A DNA stretch of 64,000 nt from Actinoallomurus soli. Lineage in GTDB: Bacteria; Actinomycetota; Actinomycetes; Streptosporangiales; Streptosporangiaceae. Below the pieces are notes generated by a model. That model worked only from the letters and a program-made list of their open reading frames with translations. It made no database searches and was not told the DNA's origin. Where the stretch lies: the NCBI RefSeq assembly GCF_024055715.1, contig NZ_JAMXMV010000001.1, positions 310,001 to 374,000 of the forward strand, read 5' to 3'. A program made the translations under genes and the position numbers. Below, piece after piece: positions 17,095-20,775 of the stretch; position 1 is the stretch's first letter; each line of letters starts with the position of its first letter.

Positions 17095-18692
17095 GCCAGG
17101 ACCTCACGGGCCTGGTCCACCGTGAGGACCGGCGCCGGAGCGAGGATCTTGCCGACCTGGGGGGCGAACGCCGGCGAGGACACCACCACCTCGGCGGTCG
17201 GCCCGTCGGCGACGATCTCGCCCTCGGCGACGACCACGGTGCGGGTCGCGACCTCGGCGACCAGTTCGACGTCGTGGGTGGCCAGGACGAGCGCGTGCCC
17301 GTCGGCGGCCAGGTCACGGACGATCTCCACCAGGCGTTCCTTGGCGGTGTAGTCGAGGCCGCGCGTCGGCTCGTCCAGCAGGACCAGCGGCGGCCGTCCG
17401 GTCAGGATCACGGCCAGCGCGAGGGACAGCCGCTGCCCCTCCGACAGGTCGCGCGGATGCAGGGCGTCGTCGACGCCGGGCGCGAGGCGCTCGAACAGGG
17501 AGCGGCAGGCTCCGCGCTCCGCCGCCATGTCGCGGTCCGCGGCGGCGCACTCGGCCGCGACCGTCTCGGCGTACAGCAGGTCGGCCGCGTCCTGCGGGAC
17601 CAGGCCGGCGTTCCGGACCATGACGCGCGGCGGCGTCTCGTGCGGCGCCGCGTCGCCGACCCGCACCCGCCCGCCCGCCGGGCGCACGAGGCCGACCAGG
17701 GCGCGCAGCAGCGAGGACTTCCCGGCGCCGTTCCGTCCCATCAGCGCGATCACCTCACCGGAGGCGACGGACAGGTCGACGCCGCGCAGCGCCGGCACCG
17801 GGCCGTACCGGACCTCCAGGCCGCGTACGGACGCGAGCGTCCGCCCGTCGCCGTTCACCGAGGGCGGAGCGGGCGGCGGAGCCACGGCGAGGCGCTCGCG
17901 CAGGGGAGCGGCGGCGCGCCGGGCGTCCCGTACGGACAGGGGCAGCGGCGACCAGCCCGCCAGCCGCCCCAGCCGGACCACGGGCGGCGCCACCGGCGAG
18001 TCCGCCATGATCGCGCCGGTCGGGCCGTACGCGGGCGGCCGCCCGTCGCCGGGCAGCAGCACCATCGTGTCGGCCAGGTGGACGACCCGTTCGAGGCGGT
18101 GCTCGGCGAGGACCACGGTGAGGCCGAGGTCGTGCACGAGCCGCTGCAGCGTGGCCAGGACGTCCTCCGCCCCGACCGGGTCCAGCGCGGACGTCGGCTC
18201 GTCGAGCACGAGGACCTTCGGGTGCGTGGTCAGCACCGAGCCGATCGCGACCCGCTGCGCCTGCCCGCCGGACAGCGTGCCGAGCGGCCGGTCCCGCAAC
18301 CCGGCCAGGCCGAGCAGGTCCAGGGTCTCCTCGACGCGCCGTCGCATGACGTCCGGCGGGACTCCCAGGGACTCCATGCCGTACGCCAGCTCCTCCTCGA
18401 CCACGTCGGAGACGAACCCGGCCCGCGGGTCCTGGCCGACGTAGCCGACGACGTCGGCGAGCTCACGCGGCGGATGATCGCGGGTGTCCCGGCCGGCGAC
18501 GGTCACCCGGCCGGACAGCACGCCGCCGGTGAAGTGGGGGACCAGGCCGTTCACCGCGCGCAGCAGCGTGGACTTGCCCGTGCCGGTACGCCCGGCGACC
18601 AGGCACAGCTCCCCCTCCTCGATCTCCAGGTCGACGTCCGTGAGCACCGGCGTCCCGCCGTAGCGGAAGCCGACCCGCTCGAAACGGATCAT
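17091..18692 (-). CDS. Fused ECF ATPase (EcfA-EcfA')
   Basis: The 533-residue protein contains two ABC ATPase domains. The first (1-250) has AGRTGTGKSTLLR, LSGGQAQRV and VLVLDEPTSALD. The second (about 285-510) has MGRNGAGKSSLLR, a weaker signature DLSEGQRLSLAL and LVLLDEPTRGLD. A single chain supplies both ECF ATPases. The ATG at 18692 overlaps the EcfT stop by 4 bases; longer open frames upstream are inside ecfT. Confidence 0.93.
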   Translation of the reverse strand: MIRFERVGFRYGGTPVLTDVDLEIEEGELCLVAGRTGTGKSTLLRAVNGLVPHFTGGVLSGRVTVAGRDTRDHPPRELADVVGYVGQDPRAGFVSDVVEEELAYGMESLGVPPDVMRRRVEETLDLLGLAGLRDRPLGTLSGGQAQRVAIGSVLTTHPKVLVLDEPTSALDPVGAEDVLATLQRLVHDLGLTVVLAEHRLERVVHLADTMVLLPGDGRPPAYGPTGAIMADSPVAPPVVRLGRLAGWSPLPLSVRDARRAAAPLRERLAVAPPPAPPSVNGDGRTLASVRGLEVRYGPVPALRGVDLSVASGEVIALMGRNGAGKSSLLRALVGLVRPAGGRVRVGDAAPHETPPRVMVRNAGLVPQDAADLLYAETVAAECAAADRDMAAERGACRSLFERLAPGVDDALHPRDLSEGQRLSLALAVILTGRPPLVLLDEPTRGLDYTAKERLVEIVRDLAADGHALVLATHDVELVAEVATRTVVVAEGEIVADGPTAEVVVSSPAFAPQVGKILAPAPVLTVDQAREVLA

Positions 18693-19741
18693 GTCCGGAT
18701 CCTCCGGAGGAGCGCCGGGGCGAGGGCGAGCAACACGCCGGCGGCCGGGAGCGCCGGCAGGCCCGGGGCGGACCCCGGCACGGGCCGCAGGCCCTCGGTG
18801 CCGGCGAGACCGGCGGCGGTCATCGCGGCGGCGGCCAGCACGCCCGATCCGCCCGTGACCCACTCCGGCAGCGCCCACGGATCCGGGCGGTACCGGGTCC
18901 GGGGGGAGCGGCGCCCCCCGAGCCACAGGCCGGCGGCGGCGCAGACCGACCCCGCGAGCAGCATCGGCGTCCCGAGCGCCGCCGGCGCCTGCCCGTCGAG
19001 AAGCCCGTACAGCCCGGCGCACACCGCGAGGAGCCCGCCGAGGACCAGGGCCGCGGTGGCGCGTCGCCGCGTGCGGGGTACGGCCGCGGTACGGCCGTAC
19101 CCGCGCGCGTCCATCGCGGCGGCCAACTGCACCGACCGGTCCAGCGCCCCCTCGAGCACCGGCATGGCGAGCCGCCGCAGGGACCGGATCCCCCGGTCGG
19201 CGCGGCCGCGCAGGCGCTGCGCGTCGCGGACCCGCCGGACGTGCGCGACCGCCTGCGGTGCGAACGTCATCGCCACGACGACCGCGACGCCCACCTCGTA
19301 CAGCGCCCCGGGCACCGACTTGAGCAGCCGGCTCGGCGCGGCCAGCGCGTTCGCCGCGCCGACGCAGACGAGGACGGTGGCGAGCCGCAGCGCGTCGTAC
19401 CCGGCGACGGCCAGGCCCTCGGCGGTCACCGGCCCGCCGACCCGCAGCCCCGCCATCCAGGACGGCAGGGTCACCGACGGCAGCGTGACCAGCGTGGTGC
19501 CCGGCGCCTGCGCCGCGAACACCGCCCCGAACACCAGCCGCACCACGACCACGAAGAGACCGATCCGCAGGAACATCCCGTACGCCCGCGCCCAGGGGTC
19601 GTCGGTCCGGCGCACCGCGACGACCGTCCCGGTCACCGCCCCGACCAGCAGGAGGAGCAGCGGGTCGGTCGTCCGCGTGGCCGCCGTCGCGAGCCCCAGC
19701 GCCCACAGCCACCAGGCCCCGGGATGCAGCCGTCGGTTCAC
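18689..19741 (-). CDS. ECF transporter transmembrane protein EcfT
   Basis: The 350-residue membrane protein has several hydrophobic segments and the coupling-helix region QRLRGRADRG and MDARGYGRT, the two Ala-Arg-Gly-type motifs that contact the ATPases. The GTG at 19741 overlaps the stop of the upstream mini-ORF (GTGA) and has AAGGAGG within the repeat as its ribosome binding site. Confidence 0.9.
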   Translation of the reverse strand: MNRRLHPGAWWLWALGLATAATRTTDPLLLLLVGAVTGTVVAVRRTDDPWARAYGMFLRIGLFVVVVRLVFGAVFAAQAPGTTLVTLPSVTLPSWMAGLRVGGPVTAEGLAVAGYDALRLATVLVCVGAANALAAPSRLLKSVPGALYEVGVAVVVAMTFAPQAVAHVRRVRDAQRLRGRADRGIRSLRRLAMPVLEGALDRSVQLAAAMDARGYGRTAAVPRTRRRATAALVLGGLLAVCAGLYGLLDGQAPAALGTPMLLAGSVCAAAGLWLGGRRSPRTRYRPDPWALPEWVTGGSGVLAAAAMTAAGLAGTEGLRPVPGSAPGLPALPAAGVLLALAPALLRRIRT

Positions 19742-19809
19742 GCGTCCTCCTTCGTCGGAGGAGTGACCAGAGGTGCTGCGTTCTTGGTTCGCTCGCTGCG
19801 CTCGCTCAT
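19738..19809 (-). CDS. Mini-ORF 2 before ecfT (23 aa, identical to mini-ORF 1)
   Basis: It starts MSERSERTKN and ends TPPTKEDA. Its ATG overlaps the TGA of mini-ORF 1 and its TGA overlaps the GTG of ecfT. The preceding copy supplies AAGGAGG at a good distance. Whether the peptide matters or only translational coupling is selected is not known. Confidence 0.55.
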   Translation of the reverse strand: MSERSERTKNAAPLVTPPTKEDA

Positions 19810-19877
19810 GCGTCCTCCTTCGTCGGAGGAGTGACCAGAGGCGCGGCGTTCTTGGTTCGCTCGCTGCGCTCGCTCAT
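19742..19877 (-). repeat. 68-bp tandem duplication carrying mini-ORFs and Shine-Dalgarno sites
   Basis: Two head-to-tail copies (19742-19809 and 19810-19877) differ at only two positions. Read on the minus strand, each starts with ATGAGCGAGCGCAGCGAGCG and ends with AAGGAGGACGC just before the next ATG or GTG. Both differences are synonymous in the Ala-Ala codons of the encoded peptide. Confidence 0.95.
19806..19877 (-). CDS. Mini-ORF 1 after the SCO2322-family gene (23 aa)
   Basis: It encodes the same 23-residue peptide as mini-ORF 2, with GCC GCG in place of GCA GCA. Its ATG overlaps the TGA of the upstream gene (ATGA), so ribosomes finishing that gene could restart here. Confidence 0.55.
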   Translation of the reverse strand: MSERSERTKNAAPLVTPPTKEDA

Positions 19878-20533
19878 CGGCGCGACCGGCGGGCCGCGAC
19901 GAGACCGCCGCCCGCGGCGACGACCACGATCAGGCCGATCCCGGCGTACAACCCGACCGGCGTCCCGGAGTCCTTCTTCTTCTCGGCGGTCGTCTTCGCG
20001 GCCGCGGTCGCCGTCGGGGACGGGGCGATCGGTATGCCGCAGGTGCCGAAGGAGTCGATGGCGCAGATCAGGCCGCTCTTGTCCGCCTGCGGGCTGCCCG
20101 CCGCCGCGAGGACGTCGGAGCCGGTGGCGTTCTCCGGAACGGTCGCGCAGTACCGCTTGGAAGCGCGCGGCACCTGGCCCTTCGGGGCGTCGCCCGCCTC
20201 GCCGTAGTCGATGACGACGGCGACGCGCTTCCTGCCCGCCGGGGTGCCGCTCCCGGGCCCGCAGATCGTGGCGAAGTCCGGCTTGTCGCGGGGCGGGGTC
20301 CCGGTGTTCCCGCTCGACTTCGCGAACCGCCATCCCTCGACCGCGCCGTCCTTGGGATGGGCCTGGGCCGGGCCCGTGCTCGCGAAGGCCCATGTGCCGC
20401 CCTTGGCCTGCCAGTATCCCCAGAACGCCACGCCGTCGGCGTGCGCCTCGGACATGGGCGCGAACACCAGGGCGGAGGCGAGGAGGCCCGCCCCGATCTT
20501 CGTGGCGGGGCGAGCGGCTGCGATCTTCGGCAT
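19874..20533 (-). CDS. SCO2322-family exported protein
   Basis: The 219-residue protein has a signal peptide (about 1-32, ending EAHADG), an extracellular domain starting VAFWGYWQAKGGTWAFASTGPA, and a C-terminal transmembrane helix followed by AARRSRR. This family is found next to ECF transport genes in Streptomyces. A surface role in corrinoid capture or presentation is an inference from context. The start is backed by AGAAAGG and lies directly downstream of the riboswitch. Confidence 0.85.
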   Translation of the reverse strand: MPKIAAARPATKIGAGLLASALVFAPMSEAHADGVAFWGYWQAKGGTWAFASTGPAQAHPKDGAVEGWRFAKSSGNTGTPPRDKPDFATICGPGSGTPAGRKRVAVVIDYGEAGDAPKGQVPRASKRYCATVPENATGSDVLAAAGSPQADKSGLICAIDSFGTCGIPIAPSPTATAAAKTTAEKKKDSGTPVGLYAGIGLIVVVAAGGGLVAARRSRR

Positions 20534-20614
20534 GGGCGCCTTTCTGGGGGCAGGGCGGTCCCCGGTGAAGCGGGCGCACCGAATGCCGCACGCGCCCGGA
20601 CTCCATCCGCAGAC

Positions 20615-20775
20615 CACGACGGAACGACGGAGCCGCTCGCGCCGGCGCGGGCATTCCGGCTCGCCGCCGGGCGGGACGCCCGTACGGCCTACGGTTGCGG
20701 GTCAGCGCCGGACTTGGACCGGCTTCCCCCGCGACGGCGCGTGTGCTGCTGCCGATGAGTTGACCACGGGGCGGT
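20615..20775 (-). promoter_or_regulatory. Cobalamin riboswitch
   Basis: On the minus strand the core GGGGAAGCCGGTCCAAGTCC is followed by GGCGCTGACCCGCAACCGTA, the hallmark of B12 riboswitches. A variant B12 box (GAGCCGGAATGCCCGCGCC) follows near 20655. It precedes the SCO2322-ECF-CobU-CobS operon, so uptake should fall when adenosylcobalamin is ample. The outer limits are approximate. A possible TTGACG -35 lies at 20782-20787. Confidence 0.88.

Follow-up and report, generated by a model that had tools for sequence, protein, structure and literature searches.

Introduction

Mycobacterial interspersed repetitive units (MIRUs) underlie routine strain typing, and to our knowledge the question of how they move has stayed open. 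The palindromic elements of Rickettsia are small repeats that lie inside coding regions, where the frame stays open and the insertion is tolerated by the host gene. A passage of PMC12548453, which cites Supply 1997, describes MIRUs as apparently mobile elements that insert at start codons and carry an internal ORF coupled with a -4 spacing, and MIRUs of 77 bp and 53 bp are named in a passage of PMC4213456.

The locus described here is found in Actinoallomurus soli, in a stretch of 64,000 nucleotides which was analysed as a whole and which we call the window. All features of the locus are on the minus strand of the window.

Two tandem units between an SCO2322-family gene and ecfT

The gene located 5' of the repeat (19874..20617 in the ORF list) belongs to the SCO2322 family (NCBIfam NF040672, 137 bits against a cut-off of 85), and its stop at 19874 is the TGA inside the first ATGA of the repeat. 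The gene located 3' of it (18689..19741 in the ORF list, GTG start at 19741) is an ecfT-like gene of the CbiQ family (Pfam PF02361, 34 bits against a cut-off of 25), and the nearest named match of its product is EcfT of A. purpureus with 92% identity. Read from 19877 to 19738, the region between them consists of ATGA, 64 nt, ATGA, 64 nt and GTGA, i.e. 2 x 68 + 4 = 140 bp. Unit 1 (19810..19877) and unit 2 (19742..19809) differ at the unit positions 33 and 36 only, where GCC GCG stands against GCA GCA, and both differences are synonymous. According to the translation, mini-ORF 1 (19806..19877 with its stop) and mini-ORF 2 (19738..19809 with its stop) encode the identical product of 23 residues, MSERSERTKNAAPLVTPPTKEDA. 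The stop of each is the TGA within the next RTGA, and in the terminal GTGA (19738..19741) the stop of mini-ORF 2 overlaps with the start of ecfT. Each unit contains an SD-like AAGGAGG (19814..19820 in unit 1, 19746..19752 in unit 2), the end of which is 4 nt away from the next start. In all these points, namely the coordinates, the two 68-bp copies with their synonymous differences, the start on the previous stop, the end on the next start and the AAGGAGG before the next frame, the initial annotation of the locus was right. A search of Rfam gave a single match (E 0.85), which was below its cut-off and outside the units.

A dispersed family of repeats

The 22-nt head pattern of the unit, with up to three mismatches allowed, matched the 9.42-Mb draft genome of A. 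soli 48 times (25 forward, 23 reverse), while the same pattern written backwards did not match at all. BLAST with one unit gave 50 listed matches in this genome. From 47 regions of the genome, 66 units at 49 sites were obtained, and 58 of these units were used to build a unit model based on sequence alone. With this model 81 matches were found in the own genome, and 85, 163, 29, 10, 46, 27 and 44 in seven other genomes of the genus (E 0.01, best 150 candidates at most scored per genome). Thus, all eight genomes of the genus contain matches, from 10 to 163 each. Scans at the level of the family (E 1e-5, best 33 candidates per genome) revealed matches in at least 42 of 150 genomes and at least 22 of 68 genera, and scans at the level of the class (E 1e-4, best 12 candidates per genome) in at least 30 of 394 genomes and at least 17 of 138 genera; both were stricter than the scan of the genus, and these counts are therefore lower bounds. 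This bears out the proposal, made from the window alone, that an actinobacterium outside the mycobacteria carries a MIRU-like repeat: the suggested search of the whole genome yielded many other, dispersed copies, and these lie at start codons and join the frames on either side. No earlier description of the element was found in titles and starts of abstracts of the open-access literature, a scope outside which most subscription papers fall.

Sixty further regions were selected from the places with the highest model scores in three genomes (G001, G002 and G003) and added together with loci of other genomes of the genus, resulting in a total of 178 units at 125 sites. Because of shared descent and of the choice of best-scoring matches, these units do not count as independent events. 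More than one unit is present at 38 of the 125 sites. The sequence ACCAAGAACGC is common to both units of the window and occurs in no other of the 178, and because of this we regard the tandem in the window as a local duplication. The same sequence would suit the view that the whole locus is a plain tandem duplication of intergenic DNA which resembles MIRUs by chance. This view is opposed by the 50 listed BLAST matches, the 81 model matches and the precise empty sites described below; it is ruled out by the dispersed copies, and we give it practically no credit.

Other genera and families contain longer relatives of 77 to 86 bp, which share the head of the unit but not its middle (L238-L252). 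Two of them (L245 and L246) belong to the family f4, which also includes the MIRU-bearing genus g71. In six genomes outside the genus (L225, L228, L230-L233) a unit precedes what by eye looks like the same gene, with a product starting MTVxPxGRKLLRLEVR; this common position may go back to a single early insertion or may mark a hot spot.

Placement at gene starts

The surroundings were scored at 124 of the 125 sites, one flank being too short. At 119 of the 124, the best downstream coding frame begins at the end of the unit and on the same strand, while one frame in six would be expected. At 115 sites there is a start codon at the unit end, and the frame behind it has no fewer than 60 codons or runs to the end of the locus; the other four of the 119 have frames below 60 codons (L078, L108) or have lost the start codon (L102, L331), and at five of the 124 sites there is no in-frame gene behind the unit. 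On the upstream side, the stop of the preceding gene is the TGA of the first RTGA of the unit at 73 of the 124 sites and lies at an offset of 9, corresponding to a 9-bp shorter unit, at four more. At the remaining sites the upstream gene does not overlap or is separated by a gap. Thus, the target is a start codon, often but not always one in a stop-start overlap.

Empty and filled sites in related species

In A. purpureus, which we take to be the species of G003, the junction of the window reads CGCCG-ATGA-GACGACGG, and the two genes are joined without a unit. The junction was found in six relatives of the genus, with one unit in G007 and none in G003, G006, G002, G005 and G001; the search in G004 gave no match. 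The 600-bp stretches flanking the site are 93% and 96% identical in G007, and 74% and 80% identical in G006. Since the unit of G007 is not the closest relative of the units in the window, we do not claim shared descent of the two insertions, and that of G007 may be independent.

For 16 other sites of the own genome, the joined flanks were searched in G003, G002 and G001, and the returned loci were aligned. A unit-free counterpart, with the join within 18 letters, was obtained for 12 of them (L070, L072, L079, L081, L082, L084, L092, L098, L099, L106, L109 and L112), and for eight of these (L072, L079, L081, L084, L092, L098, L099 and L109) there was not a single extra letter. Other units are present in relatives at the sites L088 and L112 (G003), L087 and L079 (G002), L092 (G001) and L072 (both G002 and G001). 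In G003 the counterpart of L094 is longer by 69 letters, in which no unit was matched, and for L093 the flank search in the three genomes returned no locus. At the site of L084, G003 carries 41 extra letters (L361), which also lack a unit match and which, judged by eye, run from ATGA to GTGA with an open frame and a length of 2 mod 3; perhaps this is another kind of mini-ORF insert.

At sites filled in several species the copy number and even the subfamily (A or B, see below) differ between them, suggesting that the same starts were hit repeatedly or that units were exchanged. A comparison of copy number among strains had been suggested in the initial annotation; it was made here across species only, and at this level the number of units at the same sites does differ.

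Two further cases illustrate how one gene start can look in different species. In both the own genome (L076:6639-6711) and the more distant G006 (L202), the same large gene carries a 69-bp unit as an in-frame fusion, with 71 of 73 positions identical, and in G002 the gene is preceded by a version with three units. Possibly the gene has adopted the fused unit as an N-terminal extension. The other case is an orthologous start with a 69-bp unit and a fused frame in the own genome (L112) and with a 68-bp unit and a stop-start overlap in G003 (L302).

Length, reading frame and peptide

After 22 of the 178 units without RTG at one end had been left out, 156 units with both ends remained. Their lengths are 68 bp (116 units), 69 bp (34), 71 bp (4), 66 bp (1) and 59 bp (1). 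This corresponds to 121 units of 2 mod 3 and 35 of 0 mod 3, while no unit is of 1 mod 3. Among the 121 units of 2 mod 3, the frame of 118 terminates exactly at the following RTGA (-4), two read past it and one stops early; the latter (L291) is the sole early stop among 68-bp units with RTG at both ends. Among the 35 units of 0 mod 3, 32 have a frame that continues into the following unit or gene, and three stop early (L296, L310), where by eye an internal ATG restores the -4 end. The initial annotation had assumed that frame-breaking changes within the unit in related strains would speak against its reading. Across species the length is indeed not fixed, with units of 59, 66, 69 and 71 bp, but a length of 1 mod 3 was not seen in any of the 156, and four of them stop early. 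The subfamilies are in line with this, since relative to A, subfamily B carries a +1 near column 26 and a -1 near column 41, and its length stays 68.

From outside the genus, 28 loci were inspected, each being the best match shown for its genome, and the head was recognisable in 26. Of these, 23 end exactly on DTGA at 68, 71, 77, 80, 83 or 86 bp, all of which are 2 mod 3, and three are open past the unit; at least six of the 26 (the above-mentioned L225, L228 and L230-L233) precede apparently the same gene by eye and are thus not independent. In 58 aligned units the GGNGG of the SD is invariant. The conserved features are the length modulo 3, the open frame, the SD and the pairing of the head.

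That the peptide is unchanged at both differing sites of the window had been seen as a hint of selection on the coding sequence or on the SD-bearing tail. For the peptide this found no support: the mini-ORF peptides differ between copies, the +1/-1 pair of indels puts the middle of the peptide into another frame in subfamily B than in A, and the codon positions are about equally variable, the mean column entropy of the middle being 1.15, 1.31 and 1.25 for positions 1, 2 and 3 (82 sites, 68-bp first unit). The change of frame and the similar variability of the codon positions weaken the assumption of a peptide function. Between tandem neighbours pN/pS is 0.55 (27 pairs; Nd 52.5/1281.8 sites, Sd 31.5/419.2), a mild constraint which may be explicable by the hairpins; a weak constraint on the peptide is possible. 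The unit of G007 differs from unit 1 of the window at 14 of 68 positions and in 9 of 23 residues, without any indel (Nd 10/48.7, Sd 4/17.3).

These data also bear on the idea that the units are a gene family for a functional SERSER peptide of 23 residues, which has spread as a small gene. The frame is open in nearly all units with both ends, a SERSER or TERSEG head is recurrent and the pN/pS between tandem neighbours would fit, but a middle read in two frames and the entropies at its three codon positions would not. Moreover, the conservation of the head is accompanied by base-pair covariation, the 35 units of 0 mod 3 among the 156 mostly give no free peptide, and a Pfam search with the peptide of the window gave no match. 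On balance we consider a family of peptide genes very improbable.

Hairpins at the unit ends

The head of the unit corresponds to a hairpin, RTGA-GC-GA-GC-GNA-GC-GA-GC-GA-AY, with a base of the start codon at its foot; it is located at 19855..19877 in unit 1 and at 19787..19809 in unit 2, and is based on a consensus fold and on covariation in 104 distinct heads of the genus. The outermost pair 1-23 (position 1 is the first base of the start codon) is A-T in 52 and G-C in 30 heads, and it is of the Watson-Crick type in 83 heads against 50.6 in shuffles, a value reached by none of 2000 shuffles. Similarly, pair 5-19 is C-G in 41 and G-C in 40 heads (82 against 46.1 in shuffles, 0/2000). The value of pair 9-15 was reached by 5 of 2000 shuffles and that of pair 6-18 by 303, and for the pairs 2-22 and 10-14 there was no covariation signal in the same 104 heads. 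When seven heads from other genera are included, the loop is GNA in 100 of 111 heads and the steps between the pairs are GA/GA in 89 and 101; the seven alone, which are too few for a test, show no significant excess. As relatedness can inflate tests of covariation, pair 1-23 was checked inside the subfamilies A and B apart, and it holds within each (Fisher p 0.009 each, p 5e-5 together). The units of the window, with A at position 1 and C at position 23, do not form this pair and are exceptions to the rule of the family.

The tail differs between the subfamilies. In subfamily A, to which the window's units belong, it is predicted to fold as TCCTCC-GACGAA-GGAGGN with the SD within the stem; in the window this corresponds to TCCTCC-GACGAA-GGAGGA at 19813..19830 (unit 1) and 19745..19762 (unit 2). 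The covariation test of this stem was negative, since none of the six pairs tested in 98 distinct tails was above shuffles, and for one of these pairs 33 of the 98 tails carry a mismatch. In subfamily B, an internal Y of the tail forms a pair with the base that opens the next start codon (T-A in 16 and C-G in 12 of 31 distinct tails; 28 against 15.1 in shuffles, reached by none of 1000). The same start-codon pair tested in the tails of type A gave no signal. For four units compared with shuffles the folding energies are mostly not unusual (z -2.4 to 0), and therefore we base the claim of structure on covariation. On this basis, hairpins which include bases of start codons are supported by covariation at the head and, in subfamily B, at the tail. 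The structure may act in mRNA, in single-stranded DNA while the element moves, or in both. GNA loops are unusually stable in DNA. Among the single-stranded DNA structures listed in a passage of PMC5430850 is d(GCGAAGC). In one unit of type B (L107:2047-2118) we observed that GACC near the head can pair with an internal GGTC adjoining the left arm of the tail hairpin; in this fold the two ends of the unit may compete for one stretch.

Hairpins of this kind raise the question of whether the units are regulatory cassettes in the service of the host, i.e. whether the chain of mini-ORFs is kept because it tunes or enforces the coupling of genes, and not as selfish DNA. The predicted folding of the SD into a hairpin in subfamily A, the inclusion of start codons in the head hairpin and in that of the B-type tail, and the near identity (71/73) of the fused 69-bp unit before the same gene in the own genome and the more distant G006 would be in line with such a role. 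On the other hand, the sites are empty in close relatives, and at one and the same site the copy number and the subfamily change between species. We hold a host-serving cassette to be rather unlikely, although a common theme among the downstream genes is possible.

Proposed mechanism and search for a mobilising enzyme

In our opinion it is quite probable that both units of the window are copies of a dispersed, non-autonomous repeat which inserted precisely at the RTGA of gene starts and which relays ribosomes. The reading is built on the existence of the family, its precise insertion, the rules of orientation and frame, and the covariation of the head and the B-type tail, all of which are visible in the genomes compared. 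Beyond this, ribosomes would use the mini-ORF, the tail hairpin around the SD would make re-initiation depend on them, and the family would still be moving.

According to this model, a copy of the repeat would insert exactly at the RTGA of a gene start, and ribosomes would then be led into the mini-ORF by the former upstream signals of that gene or by the stop codon in front of it. As the mini-ORF ends on a TGA overlapping the next RTG, a ribosome finishing there would open any tail hairpin, and the SD of the element itself would allow re-initiation at the original gene. The insertion would be nearly silent because the element relays the ribosome to that gene. In the units of 0 mod 3, about a fifth, the frame mostly runs on into what follows, be it a further unit or the gene, and the ribosome would usually read on. 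In the window, one copy would have inserted between the SCO2322-family gene and ecfT and then have been duplicated in tandem; tandem arrays with a period of one unit are as expected if slippage occurs between the flanking copies of RTGA.

It is tempting to extend the model to the whole class, and we do so tentatively, as the wider reading is more doubtful than the model itself. The elements would be single-strand hairpin elements, the end hairpins of which select start codons and the insertion of which is silent owing to the ribosome relay; they would be moved by some mobilising enzyme, and MIRUs would be one remote or convergent branch. In this extension the end hairpins would pair with the target RTGA, in agreement with the covariation of its first base R, whose partner is an internal Y at the head and a second such Y in the tail of type B.

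The searches for an enzyme covered the Y1 transposase (PF01797) and reverse transcriptase, and in the own genome and G001 no mobilising enzyme was found with them. No Y1 transposase was found in six of the eight genomes of the genus, including the own genome and G001. It is present in two (G003, and as a remnant in G002), at four loci (L373-L376), of which L373-L375 are IS605-like by eye and L376 gave no listed ORF. Within these loci there are no units (best match E 1.8). Thus, as a present mover in the own genome the Y1 transposase was discarded, and the copies of G003 and G002 look like ordinary IS605 by eye. At L374 in G002, a remnant of an IS605-type tnpA and by eye a tnpB-like frame are about 2 kb away from a unit, with no sign of linkage. 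Reverse transcriptase was absent from the search results of the own genome (G000), G001 and G002. With respect to the terminal inverted repeats of MITEs of DDE transposons, none shared by the unit ends was seen by eye, though GACC near the head pairs with GGTC in the one fold of type B mentioned above.

Comparison with MIRUs and other repeats

The family described here is of interest for several reasons. A single genome can contain as many as 163 matches, and close relatives offer both empty and filled sites, so that target choice and the translational hand-over are testable in this genus, which is not known to be harmful. It follows a rule by which the total length keeps the ribosome on track while the peptide changes. 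Finally, annotators of actinobacterial genomes should be aware that SERSER-like N-termini and peptides of 23 residues can be sequence of the element.

While the palindromic elements of Rickettsia lie within coding regions, the element described here usually sits before a gene, in stop-start coupling. REP sequences and the ends of IS200/IS605-type elements (PMC8266576, PMC6006769, PMC3733652) resemble our element in strand-specific hairpins, high copy number and the lack of an own gene, and also in a short tetranucleotide at the foot. REPs are described as extragenic palindromes, whereas our element sits on start codons and carries an open frame. With respect to the end hairpins typical of REP/RAYT systems, its head and its B-type tail covary and its A-type tail does not. 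Unlike in IS200/IS605 and REP/RAYT systems, a Y1 transposase was not found in six of the eight genomes of the genus, the own genome included.

The closest likeness is that to MIRUs. A MIRU core was found in 12 of the 394 genomes of the class, all of them from the genus g71, which we take to be Mycobacterium, and in this genus the unit model gave no match (E 1e-4, stricter filters, best 12 candidates per genome). By eye, MIRUs and our unit have only the GAGCGNAGCGA core and the SD in common; the shared sequence amounts to about 11 bp. In MIRUs this core is next to the SD, and in our element it is at the 5' end; moreover, the tandem spacings of MIRUs include 51, 52 and 55 bp, and not only lengths of 2 mod 3. 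Of the relation to MIRUs proposed in the initial annotation, sequence homology thus found no support at this depth of search, while the sameness of the design was confirmed. As in the MIRUs described in passages of the cited papers, short repeats at start codons contain a small ORF with a -4 overlap on the next start and an SD near the 3' end and form tandem copies, and the length of 77 bp named in PMC4213456 is also found among units of our element in other families. The GAGCGNAGCGA core has the same GC-GNA-GC pairing with GA/GA flanks (by eye). Both kinds of elements occur in many dispersed copies per genome (here 81 model matches in the own genome) and are placed at start codons or stop/start overlaps (here 119/124 and 115/124 sites, with an upstream stop at 73/124). 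In both, the small ORF has ends that overlap the neighbouring frames (here in 118/156 units), and tandem copies vary in number between genomes (here 38/125 sites have several units, and the number differs between species). In summary, the element appears to work like a MIRU: it is MIRU-like by design, with about 11 bp of shared sequence.
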